From: Pseudomonas vranovensis DSM 16006
Lineage (GTDB): Bacteria; Pseudomonadota; Gammaproteobacteria; Pseudomonadales; Pseudomonadaceae
DNA: 64,000 nucleotides
Direction: 5' to 3'
Assembly: GCF_000425805.1 (NCBI RefSeq)
Contig: NZ_AUED01000003.1
Location: forward strand, 496,001-560,000
Shown here: in pieces, positions 10,930 through 14,021 of the stretch
Numbering within the stretch: position 1 is the first letter of the stretch
How the letters are laid out: every line of letters starts with the position of its first letter
Notes under the pieces: generated by a model
Told to the model about the DNA's origin: nothing
Databases searched by the model: none
What the model saw: only the letters and a program-made list of their open reading frames with translations
Program-made: the position numbers and the translations under genes

Positions 10930-11865
10930 ATGACTGTTTCCTTTGTCGCCAAGGCAGGTGTATTGCTGCTGTTTTTCGGCAGTACGCTGTATGTTCACCT
11001 GCGCGGCAAGGCGCGTTTGCCAATGTTGCGCCAATTCGTCAATCATTCGGCGCTGTTCGCCCCGTACAACGCCTTGATGTACCTGTTCTCCGGCGTACCG
11101 TCCAAGCCTTACCTGGACCGCACCCGCTTTCCCGAGCTCGATGTGCTCAAGGACAACTGGCAAGTGATCCGCGAAGAGGCCATGCACCTGTTCGACGAGG
11201 GTTACATCCGCGCTGCGGAGAAAGACAACGACGCAGGCTTTGGCTCGTTCTTCAAGAAGGGCTGGAAGCGCTTTTACCTCAAGTGGTACGACAAAGCGCT
11301 ACCGTCGGCCGAGGCGTTGTGCCCCAGGACGGTCGAGCTGGTCAACAGCATCCCCAACGTCAAGGGTGCGATGTTTGCCTTGCTGCCGGGTGGCAGCCAC
11401 CTGAACCCGCATCGTGATCCGTTTGCCGGCTCCCTGCGCTATCACCTGGGGCTTTCGACGCCCAACTCCGATCACTGCAGGATCTACGTCGACGGCCAGC
11501 CCTATGCCTGGCGCGACGGTGAAGACGTGATGTTCGATGAAACCTATGTTCACTGGGTGAAGAACGAAACCGAGACTACCCGGGTGATCCTGTTCTGTGA
11601 CGTCGAACGCCCGCTCAGCAGCCCGCTGATGACCCGTATCAACCGCAAGGTCAGTGCTTTCCTGGGCCGTGCCACGGCGCCGCAGAACACCGACGATGAG
11701 CGCGTCGGCGGGATCAACCAGGCCTATGCCTGGAGCAAGCGCTTCAGCACTGTCATCAGCAGCCGGGTCAAGCAGTTCAAACGTGCCAATCCAAAGGCCT
11801 ACCGGGTATTGCGTCCGGTGTTGGCGGTGGTGGTGGCCTACCTGCTGTATCACTGGTTGTTCTGA
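10930..11865 (+). CDS. lpxO: Aspartyl/asparaginyl beta-hydroxylase family, LpxO-type lipid A hydroxylase
   Basis: A 311-residue Fe(II)/2-oxoglutarate dioxygenase. The iron-binding H-x-D is in NPHRDPFAGSLRYHLGLSTP (about residue 157), and the distal His plus the 2-oxoglutarate Arg are in HWVKNETETTRVILFCDVERP. Membrane segments at both ends (residues 5-22 and the last 20, ending YLLYHWLF) match LpxO. LpxO hydroxylates the secondary acyl chain of lipid A at the inner membrane face. Pseudomonads can carry more than one LpxO paralog and I cannot say which this is. GGAGTG stands 7 bases before the ATG. Confidence 0.8.
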   Translation: MTVSFVAKAGVLLLFFGSTLYVHLRGKARLPMLRQFVNHSALFAPYNALMYLFSGVPSKPYLDRTRFPELDVLKDNWQVIREEAMHLFDEGYIRAAEKDNDAGFGSFFKKGWKRFYLKWYDKALPSAEALCPRTVELVNSIPNVKGAMFALLPGGSHLNPHRDPFAGSLRYHLGLSTPNSDHCRIYVDGQPYAWRDGEDVMFDETYVHWVKNETETTRVILFCDVERPLSSPLMTRINRKVSAFLGRATAPQNTDDERVGGINQAYAWSKRFSTVISSRVKQFKRANPKAYRVLRPVLAVVVAYLLYHWLF

Positions 11866-11868
11866 TCG

Positions 11869-11918
11869 CATCGCGGGGCACGCCGTTCCCACTGTGGGAG
11901 CGGGCTTGCCCCGCGATG
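11869..11918. repeat. REP element
   Basis: Inverted arms CATCGCGGGGCA (11869-11880) and TGCCCCGCGATG (11907-11918) contain the pseudomonad REP core, with a small inner dyad (CCCACTGTGGG). It starts 4 bp after the lpxO-like stop. Its right arm also supplies the -35 hexamer of the promoter proposed at 11906-11934. Confidence 0.8.
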
Positions 11919-11934
11919 AAGTCGCCGTTATATT
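11906..11934 (+). promoter_or_regulatory. Candidate sigma-70 promoter for the leader-EamA transcript
   Basis: TTGCCC at 11906-11911 and TATATT at 11929-11934 are separated by 17 bp. The predicted transcript start is near 11941, about 26 bases before the leader-peptide ATG. The -35 lies inside the REP arm, so the repeat appears to have been co-opted as promoter sequence. Confidence 0.45.
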
Positions 11935-11966
11935 CAGACACAGTTCACCTCACCGAAGACCTGCCC

Positions 11967-12098
11967 ATGCCAGCTTCCCCGCTCACCACTGTATTTGCCA
12001 CCGCGCCCGACGCGGTTGTAGTCGTGCGTGGGAATCAGCAGCCGGCCATGATCAGCCACTACCCACCACCTGTCAGTAGCGTGGTAGTGCTGGGCTGA
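11967..12098 (+). CDS. Putative valine-rich leader peptide (IvbL-like) of an attenuator
   Basis: A 43-codon ORF with two branched-chain clusters: VVVV (codons 17-20, four different Val codons) and VVVLG at the very end (12081-12095), plus a PPP triplet. The stretch TAPDAVVVVRGN resembles the E. coli ilvBN leader peptide IvbL as I recall it (TAPSAAVVVVR, then GNAP). A terminator-like hairpin follows 47 bp after the stop, ahead of an EamA transporter gene. The ribosome site is weak (GAAG). An in-frame ATG at 11916 would add 17 residues but has no ribosome site and would lie before the predicted transcript start. Confidence 0.55.
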   Translation: MPASPLTTVFATAPDAVVVVRGNQQPAMISHYPPPVSSVVVLG

Positions 12099-12190
12099 GC
12101 GGCCAATCGCTGCGTCCCATCACACCTGCATCCTCTACTGAACACGGTTGACTGCCCGTAGCGGGCAGCACCGTTCGGCTTTTCTGCCCG
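12083..12190 (+). promoter_or_regulatory. Attenuator-like set of competing hairpins upstream of the EamA gene
   Basis: Hairpin 1:2 has its 5' arm on the VVVLG codons: GGT 12083-12085 with ACC 12124-12126, GTG 12087-12089 with CAC 12121-12123, TGGG 12091-12094 with CCCA 12116-12119, and AGCG 12098-12101 with CGCT 12108-12111. The terminator is CTGCCCG 12152-12158 with CGGGCAG 12162-12168, extended by CGGT 12145-12148 with ACCG 12170-12173, then CTTTT at 12179-12183. Competing pairings for the 3' arm are GCTGC(gt)CC at 12109-12117 and a second CTGCCCG at 12184-12190. Paired by eye only. Confidence 0.5.
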
Positions 12191-12207
12191 AATTACAGGT
12201 GGCACTC

Positions 12208-13098
12208 ATGTTTGCTCTATCGAAAGAATCCGTGGCCTCGGCGGCCACCACCAGCCTGTTTGTCCTGCTCTGGAGTAGCGGGGCGATCGTTTCCAAGTTG
12301 GGCCTTGCCCATGCCAGTCCTTTTGCCTTTTTGTTGCTGCGTTCGGCCCTGGCCCTGTGTGGCCTGTTGCTGCTGGCGCCGTTGCTCAAACTGCGCTGGC
12401 CGCGCGGACGGGGCGGGGTGTTGCAGGCACTGGCCACCGGTGCCGTACTGCTGGGCGCCTACCAGATTTTCTACCTGCTGGCGCTGAACACCCAGGTGAC
12501 CCCCGGCATCATGGCTACGGTCATGGGCGTGCAGCCGATCCTCACCGTGGTACTGATGGAGCGCCAGCGTTCCTGGAGCCGGCTGTTCGGCCTGGGTCTG
12601 GGATTGAGCGGGTTGATCATGGTGGTCTACCAGGGCATCGGCCTGGGCGGCATTTCCCTGGCCGGGATGCTGTTTGCCTTGTTGGCGCTGGTGAGCATGA
12701 CGTTTGGCTCGATCATGCAGAAGCGCATCACCGACAACCCGATGGGCACCTTGCCGTTGCAATACATGGCCGGGTTGCTGATGTGTTCGTTGTTTGCACC
12801 CTTCCAGCCACTGCAGGTGGAAATGACGGCCGGCTTCATTGGCGCCTTGCTGTGGATGGGGCTGGTGGTGTCGTTGCTGGCGACCTTGCTGTTGTACCGG
12901 CTGATCGCCCGAGGCAACCTGGTCAATGTCACCAGCCTGTTCTACCTGGTACCGGCGGTGACGGCGGTGAAGGACTACCTGATCTTCGGTAACCGCCTGG
13001 CGGCATTGAGCGTGCTGGGGATGGCGCTGATCGTGATCGGCTTGCTGTTTGTGTTTCGCAAGTCGGCGCTGAGTGCCGGGCAACTGCAGGCCGATTGA
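12208..13098 (+). CDS. EamA/DMT family transporter behind the leader peptide
   Basis: A 296-residue inner-membrane protein with ten predicted helices in two EamA repeats (FVLLWSSGAIVSKLGLAHASP at the N-terminus; second repeat from about residue 150). DMT proteins mostly export metabolites such as amino acids. The ATG at 12208 has AGGTGG at 6-base spacing; an upstream TTG in frame would run through the terminator hairpin. The valine/leucine-rich leader upstream suggests regulation by branched-chain amino acid supply, so those or related compounds are candidate substrates. That is inference. Confidence 0.85.
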   Translation: MFALSKESVASAATTSLFVLLWSSGAIVSKLGLAHASPFAFLLLRSALALCGLLLLAPLLKLRWPRGRGGVLQALATGAVLLGAYQIFYLLALNTQVTPGIMATVMGVQPILTVVLMERQRSWSRLFGLGLGLSGLIMVVYQGIGLGGISLAGMLFALLALVSMTFGSIMQKRITDNPMGTLPLQYMAGLLMCSLFAPFQPLQVEMTAGFIGALLWMGLVVSLLATLLLYRLIARGNLVNVTSLFYLVPAVTAVKDYLIFGNRLAALSVLGMALIVIGLLFVFRKSALSAGQLQAD

Positions 13099-13103
13099 GC
13101 TGT

Positions 13104-13133
13104 TCGCGGGGCAGGTATCGACTTGCCCCGCGA
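13104..13133. repeat. REP element between convergent EamA genes
   Basis: TCGCGGGGCA at 13104-13113 pairs with TGCCCCGCGA at 13124-13133 around a 10-nt loop. It lies between the stops of two convergent transporter genes (13098 and 13137), where it could terminate or protect both transcripts. Confidence 0.75.
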
Positions 13134-13136
13134 TCT

Positions 13137-14021
13137 TCATTTACTGGCTGGCTTGAGCACCAACCAAAGCGCCACCGCAATCAACAACCCACCCCACAGG
13201 TGTGCCATCGACAATGGTTCATCCAGCAACCACGCCCCCCACAACACACCAAAGGCCGGAATCATGAAGGTTACAGTGGTGGCCTTGACCGGACCAATCT
13301 CGCTGAGCAGGCGGAAGTACAGAATGTACGCAAACGCCGTGCAGACCAGCCCCAACCCCAGTAGCGATAGCCATACATCCCAGCCACCCCAGCTCGCAGG
13401 CGGGGCAGTCAGCACGCTGTAGCCAAACAACGGCAACAGCAGCAGGGTTGCGCCCAACATGCTGCCCAACGCCGACAGGCGACTGTCCAGGCCGCCCGCC
13501 TGGTCAAGCCAGCGCCGGGCCAGAAAGCCGGCAAAGCCATAACAGGTGGTCGCCGCCAGGCACGAGATCGCGCCTTGCAGCAGGCTTTGGTCAAATGCCA
13601 CCGGCCCCGCGCCACTGAGAATGCCGACGCCGAACAGACCGAGGAAGATGCCGCAGAGTTTGGCCAGAGTCATGGGTTCACGAAAGAACAGCGCGCCAAT
13701 CAACACGCCCATCAAGGGCGTCGTGGCATTGAAGATGGCCGAGTAACCGGCTGGCAGCACTTGCGCCGCGACGGAATACAGCGTGGCCGGAATCCCCGAA
13801 TTGATCATGCCCAGCACCAGGCAGGCCTTGAGCTTGCCGTTGAAGTCCCAACGCACGCGCAGCAGGGCGAGGATCACCATCAACCCGGCGCAGGCGATGG
13901 ACACGCGAAAGAAGGCCGTGGGCAGTGTGCCGAGCACGGGTGCGATGATGCGCATGAACAGGAAACTTGCGCCCCAGACAGCGGCAAGAATCAACAGGCG
14001 GGTAATGGCGATGGGGGTCAT
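13137..14021 (-). CDS. EamA/DMT family transporter
   Basis: A 294-residue protein with ten predicted membrane helices and the EamA repeat signature (ILAAVWGASFLFMRIIAPVLG near the N-terminus and a second repeat from about residue 150). It is convergent with the preceding EamA gene but clearly different in sequence, so this is not a recent tandem duplication. Substrate unknown; export of small metabolites is typical of the family. GGAT lies upstream of the ATG at 14021. Confidence 0.85.
   Translation of the reverse strand: MTPIAITRLLILAAVWGASFLFMRIIAPVLGTLPTAFFRVSIACAGLMVILALLRVRWDFNGKLKACLVLGMINSGIPATLYSVAAQVLPAGYSAIFNATTPLMGVLIGALFFREPMTLAKLCGIFLGLFGVGILSGAGPVAFDQSLLQGAISCLAATTCYGFAGFLARRWLDQAGGLDSRLSALGSMLGATLLLLPLFGYSVLTAPPASWGGWDVWLSLLGLGLVCTAFAYILYFRLLSEIGPVKATTVTFMIPAFGVLWGAWLLDEPLSMAHLWGGLLIAVALWLVLKPASK

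Follow-up and report, generated by a model that had tools for sequence, protein, structure and literature searches.

A polyproline leader ORF carrying a conserved anti-Shine-Dalgarno sequence upstream of an EamA-family transporter gene in Pseudomonas: a candidate translational attenuator

Described leader systems and the layout of the locus

In attenuators of the ermC and catA86 type, a ribosome stalled on the leader in a drug-dependent manner exposes the sequestered ribosome-binding site (RBS) of a resistance gene. In E. coli, the valine runs of the leader peptide IvbL belong to the attenuator of ilvBN, in which a biosynthetic gene is controlled with a terminator. The leader considered herein precedes an EamA-family transporter gene in a window of 64,000 nt from Pseudomonas vranovensis DSM 16006. 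It resembles the former type in the proposed exposure of an RBS by a leader stall, whereas the drug dependence, resistance genes, and peptides of that type differ from it. It shares valine runs with IvbL; however, no strict terminator is conserved here, no biosynthetic gene is controlled, and the valine runs are not family-wide.

Among leaders of transporter genes, mgtQ, an ORF located between mgtC and mgtB in Salmonella, has been described in the available excerpts as a short ORF whose poor translation frees the sequestered RBS of the transporter gene (PMC8092293), which resembles the arrangement proposed here, in which a short ORF would control a sequestered RBS. According to the same excerpts, mgtQ differs in having 8 codons, in being driven by ribosome destabilisation at Asp/Glu, in serving a Mg2+ transporter from inside an operon, and in a single Pro that is unnecessary for its effects on translation (PMC8092293). 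The leader mgtP of Salmonella mgtCBR has three consecutive Pro codons and responds to proline limitation (PMC3641672, in excerpt). It and mgtL of mgtA are similar to the present leader as ORFs with proline codons located before a transporter gene, but differ in their transcriptional output (attenuation, with Rho for mgtL), and the excerpts of these papers do not describe their Pro codons as an anti-Shine-Dalgarno sequence (PMC3641672, PMC6460261, PMC11282234). Another Pseudomonas leader peptide, PA5471.1 of armZ in P. aeruginosa, reads trouble at the ribosome and leads to efflux; however, transcriptional attenuation of an anti-repressor gene has been proposed for it, and neither polyproline nor Shine-Dalgarno (SD) sequestration is described in the excerpts of that paper (PMC12057347). 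In the case of CruR from Bordetella, arrest on an upstream ORF controls a transporter operon, but through a CXXC copper sensor, a RAPP arrest motif, and Rho-dependent termination (PMC9426467, in excerpt).

As far as these systems are described in the excerpts available, none combines a polyproline stall site and an anti-SD sequence in the same codons before an EamA gene. No description of the EamA leader was recognised among the open-licence PMC papers listed, an absence that is weak evidence. The locus offers a widespread and readily testable case of putative translational attenuation in Pseudomonas, in which a candidate polyproline stall site overlies the anti-SD sequence of the transporter gene.

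Regarding the layout of the locus (Table 1), an lpxO-like gene (10930-11865; its match to NCBIfam LpxO is below the cutoff of that model) is followed by the promoter, the leader ORF, a 109-nt spacer, and the EamA gene. Pfam assigned the EamA product to the general EamA family alone, NCBIfam matches were below their cutoffs, and the PDB contained no sequence relative of it at E<=0.001. A second EamA-family gene (13137-14021, minus strand) is the convergent neighbour of the first.

Table 1. Coordinates of the leader locus within the window
Feature	Position	Strand	Basis
Sigma-70-like promoter TTGCCC-N17-TATATT	11906..11934	+	Motif scan; -10-type hexamer recurs in the genus
Leader ORF, 43 codons and stop	11967..12098	+	ORF list, homology, substitution pattern
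Tyr-Pro-Pro-Pro codons, proposed ribosome pause site	12060..12071	+	YPPP counts, substitution counts, excerpts of PMC4176338
Anti-Shine-Dalgarno sequence CCACCTGT within the Pro-Pro-Val codons	12066..12073	+	Complementarity, conservation, folding
Second long-range helix, 5' arm (CAGTAG)	12074..12079	+	RNAalifold; some pairs show compensatory changes
Second long-range helix, 3' arm (CTACTG)	12135..12140	+	RNAalifold
Inner GC hairpin between the helices (terminator stem of the sequence-only reading)	12145..12173	+	Predicted fold; strict terminator not conserved
EamA Shine-Dalgarno region ACAGGTGG, partner of 12066-12073	12195..12202	+	Complementarity, folding
EamA-family transporter gene	12208..13098	+	Pfam EamA, E 3.5e-20

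An earlier reading made from the sequence alone (hereafter, the sequence-only reading) had interpreted this region as an attenuator of the IvbL kind that responds to valine and terminates transcription. Its 43-codon ORF with VVVV and VVVLG and its promoter were both found as it had described them, and the presence of a leader ORF with conserved RNA structure before the transporter gene was upheld; its valine- and termination-based mechanism was not. In all 116 EamA-bearing loci of the genus set, the hexamer TATA(G/T)T was found in the 90 nt that precede the start codon of the leader, as opposed to a mean of 9.7 for shuffled segments, and -35 hexamers of the TTGC type were found in most relatives. 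Transcription presumably starts at approximately 11941. The -35 hexamer TTGCCC of the window originates from positions 11868-11927, which we take to be a REP-like palindrome of the Pseudomonas REP type. The stretch GGGCTTGCCCCGCGA is common to some relatives; others have a TTGC -35 hexamer without the REP-like stretch.

Conservation of the leader peptide and of its codons

A search with the 43-aa leader peptide yielded matches at E<=1 in 153 of 199 genomes of the genus, many weak matches being due to chance. From this search, 120 loci were taken up, and 116 remained after the removal of four without EamA. The leader ORF was present upstream of the EamA orthologue in all 116, a count that does not represent a fair frequency because the loci had been picked by the leader search; therefore, a second survey was started from EamA. 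The 80 named loci with the most similar EamA were all from Pseudomonas (best identity, 93%). A leader with YPP was present in 79 of them, the exception being that of P. soli (L254), in which PPP is kept without Tyr, and the pattern of anti-SD and SD was present in 76. The leaders of the genus set have 43-55 codons, end 76-116 nt before the EamA start, and are intact in 115 of the 116 loci; 79 of them, at less than 93% identity to one another, were retained as a non-redundant set. A frameshift was observed in the leader of L114 after HYP, inside the proline codons (HYPLLSAALWRRHQVLL), with the nucleotides CCTCCTGTC being retained.

Across the family, EamA was detected at E<=1e-30 in 44 of 119 genomes of the family. 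These gave 30 loci, 27 of which were tabulated (three being of the window's genus), and the 14 genomes that gave no locus are thus outside the family counts. In all 27 tabulated loci, EamA is preceded by an ORF with two or more Pro-Pro runs, and the rest of the peptide was barely recognisable. PPP was found in 26 of these 27 leaders and in 112 of the 116 genus leaders; among the 116, YPPP is present in 111, and two or more Pro-Pro runs are likewise present in 111. The second run has been lost in the window's own leader. Based on these comparisons, the leader ORF is real and conserved, and Pro-Pro runs are the most widely conserved feature of the peptide, which makes this leader an example of a peptide that loses nearly all sequence likeness and yet keeps its Pro-Pro runs. 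In the 27 family leaders, the last Pro-Pro run ends 2-6 codons before the stop and is usually preceded by Ala, Ser, Thr, Cys, or Tyr.

At greater distances, EamA matches at 1e-40 were obtained for 10 of the 244 genomes searched in the order, of which four belong to other families, and for 2 of 274 genomes in the class, one being the window's own. A profile search for the leader in the 244 genomes of the order gave matches at E<=0.1 in 34, and strong near-full-length matches were limited to the window's genome and one congener. The upstream ORFs of five EamA relatives from other families (L174-L178) contain a PP, and no clear complement of the SD was seen in them by eye. The leader matched no known protein family in Pfam at 1e-3 or NCBIfam at 0.1; Rfam 15 gave no match above the gathering threshold in 6 loci, and three sub-threshold matches within 11400-13400.

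The codons of the leader are under two layers of selection. Substitutions were counted at codon positions 1, 2, and 3 over a 115-taxon tree built from EamA, in which EamA itself averages 6.1, 1.9, and 16.2 changes. The codon before Tyr showed 0, 1, and 18 changes, the Tyr codon 0, 0, and 7, and the Pro codon preceding CCT 2, 1, and 10; amino acids that are held at His/Gln, Tyr, and Pro codons with drifting third positions point to coding selection on the leader. The following CCT and GTC codons showed only 0, 0, 1 and 1, 0, 2 changes, respectively, and are present in 78 and 75 of the 79 non-redundant leaders. This comparison shows selection on Tyr-Pro-Pro at the amino acid level and, at the nucleotide level, the freezing of CCTGTC, which varies less than any other element of the leader in the genus.

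The bases CCTGT in these Pro-Val codons are complementary to ACAGG of the EamA SD, and in the window the complement extends to 8 nt, with CCACCTGT and ACAGGTGG exactly complementary, a relationship that the sequence-only reading had overlooked. The Pro-Pro-Val codons are thus dictated in part by the anti-SD sequence itself. The pair between the third base of GTC and the base before ACAGG is absent in most relatives, in which that base is T; in three non-redundant leaders with GTG in place of GTC (L117-L119), the base is C and pairs.

A complement of 8 nt was the longest one upstream of 3 of 46 genes in the window, and is by itself not beyond chance. The longest complement between leader and SD averaged 7.71 nt across the 79 leaders and 7.52 nt across the 27 family leaders; synonymous shuffling reduced these averages to 5.94 nt (with no shuffled set above 6.28) and 5.79 nt, respectively. 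An exact complement of at least 7 nt was present in 17 of the 27 family loci, in two of which (L169 and L170) it precedes the likely start of the ORF. In one genus of the family (g116; L165, L169, L170, and L172), the SD has a local partner, ACCTGT just upstream of ACAGGT, and the Pro-Pro runs are kept.

Predicted RNA structure and ribosome positions

The region from just before the Tyr codon to the EamA start was folded with RNAalifold separately for two clades of leaders, clade 2 with 54 sequences and clade 1 with 20, five divergent leaders being excluded. The same architecture was obtained in both, namely, a closing helix between anti-SD and SD, a CAGUAG:CUACUG helix in which some pairs show compensatory changes, together with inner hairpins. 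In clades 2 and 1, respectively, 95.6% and 90.8% of alignment cells were paired, versus 31-55% and 41-48% with the partners slid, and the alignment energies were -100 and -96 versus minima of -66 and -67 for shuffled columns. The probability of pairing between leader and SD had a median of 0.97, and was greater than 0.5 in 58 of the 79 sequences and less than 0.5 in 21. Covariation across the orthologous regions of Pseudomonas was modest: in clade 2, 11 of 53 pairs had double changes, compared with at most 10 after shuffling, and in clade 1, 4 of 51 pairs had them, compared with at most 6 after shuffling and 2-6 in slid versions. The CTGCCC/GGGCAG stem, with which the alternative partners named in the sequence-only reading (12109-12117 and 12184-12190) would compete, was not common to all members of clade 1 in the alignment. 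The fold of the window sequence alone was unexceptional (z of -1.29). Accordingly, structure and complement are no more than expected by chance in a single sequence and exceed chance across relatives. The predicted folds suggest that the conserved output is the sequestration of the RBS of the transporter gene.

The cost of opening this RBS was computed with a 31-nt ribosome footprint masked at successive positions. In 40 of the sequences, the mean cost was 9.7 kcal/mol without a ribosome and 7.1 kcal/mol when the P-site was placed at Tyr+3; in the other 39, it was 10.4 kcal/mol without a ribosome and 7.5-7.6 kcal/mol for P-sites at Tyr+2 to Tyr+4; a ribosome at YPPPV was thus predicted to lower the cost by 2.6-2.9 kcal/mol. 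The corresponding values for the window were 6.6 at Tyr and 7.0 at Tyr+3, versus 9.6 when free. Examined codon by codon in the 39 sequences, the trough spans approximately Tyr-3 to Tyr+8, as for any ribosome on the anti-SD sequence; a smaller second dip (7.9 kcal/mol) was predicted in the 40 sequences with the ribosome near the ORF start (codon -27), and further dips were obtained for the window at -24, -21, +18, and +21 relative to Tyr. Because of the broad trough and these other dips, the opening cost does not single out PPP. The masking of YPP raised the mean unpaired probability of the SD only from 0.05 to 0.14 because other pairings remain, and in the window this probability did not rise (0.056 to 0.039).

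Candidate mechanism and alternative explanations

Considering the fall in opening cost at YPPP and reporter work in E. coli that ranks this motif with those causing strong EF-P-dependent stalling (PMC4176338, in excerpt), we propose that the transporter gene is kept off by sequestration and switched on by polyproline pausing. A translational attenuator released by ribosomes that pause on polyproline is the best explanation of the present findings, to which we assign a probability of approximately 0.6. Points that weigh against it are the small gain in SD accessibility on masking of YPP, the breadth of the trough and the other dips, the modest number of double changes, the 21 leaders with low pairing probability, the family loci that lack a complement of at least 7 nt, the position of the complement in L169 and L170, the loss of the second Pro-Pro run in the window, and the partial dependence of the Pro-Pro-Val codons on the anti-SD sequence. 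In this mechanism, an mRNA beginning near 11941 would carry the short leader ORF, the Pro-Pro-Val codons (CCACCTGT) would pair with the EamA SD approximately 125 nt downstream and, together with the CAGTAG:CTACTG helix, would close a branched structure. With its SD sequestered by leader codons, EamA would therefore be poorly translated by default. A ribosome paused on Tyr-Pro-Pro-Pro would cover the anti-SD sequence and cut the cost of opening the RBS, such that EamA is made; a pause at the proline codons would thus probably turn on production of the transporter. The sequence-only reading had also mentioned a stall at PPP; the motif proved to be conserved, and we infer the pausing itself, the translation of the leader, and the direction of control. 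Candidate triggers may include EF-P activity, the level of charged tRNA-Pro, or a ligand by which the arrest would be reinforced. If polyproline is the signal, the leader would be a natural reporter of the state of EF-P and a pointer to the cargo of EamA.

EF-P of P. aeruginosa is rhamnosylated by EarP (PMC13159725, in excerpt). On this background, it is possible, and we suggest it tentatively, that the leader acts as a family-wide sensor of polyproline translation, in which low activity of EF-P or low rhamnosylation of it by EarP would slow ribosomes at YPPP, unmask the EamA RBS, and induce the exporter. If so, EamA would be among the means with which the cell answers a failure of polyproline synthesis or the cause of that failure, and the peptide would be free to diverge while its Pro-Pro runs and the anti-SD sequence stay.

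An unlikely alternative to pausing on polyproline as such is that the nascent leader peptide senses a small molecule within the exit tunnel, which might be the substrate of the exporter or a ribosome-targeting drug, and that the resulting arrest at YPPP frees the EamA RBS. The partial conservation in the genus of the residues before YPPP (QQP at -8 to -6 and Ile at -3) is consistent with such an arrest, as is the response of the P. aeruginosa leader peptide PA5471.1 to ribosome-targeting antibiotics (PMC12057347, in excerpt). However, only the Pro-Pro runs, and not the residues upstream of them, are conserved outside the genus, and the QQPAMIS codons are predicted to pair with the start region of the leader itself, which could explain their conservation.

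We consider it improbable that translation of the leader governs transcription through a terminator, whether intrinsic or dependent on Rho, ahead of EamA, even though leader ORFs with Rho-dependent output have precedents in mgtL (PMC11282234) and CruR (PMC9426467), both according to excerpts. A terminator of strict definition was found in 1 of 20 clade 1 and none of 54 clade 2 sequences, and conservation centres on the pairing of the SD, neither of which fits termination as the conserved output. Under a loose definition, matches were found in 3 of 20 and 36 of 54 sequences, versus 0.75 and 4.85 after shuffling; therefore, clade 2 may have a weak terminator. In the window, the scan returned only two overlapping 5-pair stems (12160-12177), against a background of five matches on both strands of 1.2 kb where 1.0 was expected.

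Attenuation by the charging of valine (or valine and leucine) tRNA, as originally proposed for this locus, is very improbable, despite the abundance of valine. This residue accounts for 20.8% of the genus leaders versus 3-6% in the other five frames, VV is present in all 116 of them, and all 79 non-redundant leaders have at least two VV runs; furthermore, Val-rich ORFs are found ahead of EamA relatives from two other families, and the downstream VVV of the window is situated at the edge of the trough. However, VV runs are missing from 8 of the 27 family leaders, and at most of the Val positions Ala, Gly, Ile, Leu, or Phe can stand instead. Moreover, a ribosome on the upstream Val run left the mean opening cost at 9.4-9.7 kcal/mol versus 9.7 when free (40 sequences), and at VVVV in the window the cost was 10.1-10.3 versus 9.6, which argues against valine as the control signal. 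Kinship with IvbL likewise finds no support, since the form TAPDAVVVV is confined to near relatives of the window and is replaced elsewhere by APVAGMVV, AVNAGVVPC, or quite different peptides; amino acid attenuation of the IvbL type thus fails on family conservation, the position of VVVV, and the missing strict terminator.

An arrest peptide of the RAPP type or of the CruR class was rejected because neither R(A/G)P(P/G) nor CXXC occurred in any of the 116 genus and 27 family leaders (143 in all).

The Val-rich ORFs found ahead of EamA relatives outside the family (L176-L178, from two families within the order) are short and strongly Val-rich, with a single PP; the frame of L178, read from the DNA, has 21 codons.
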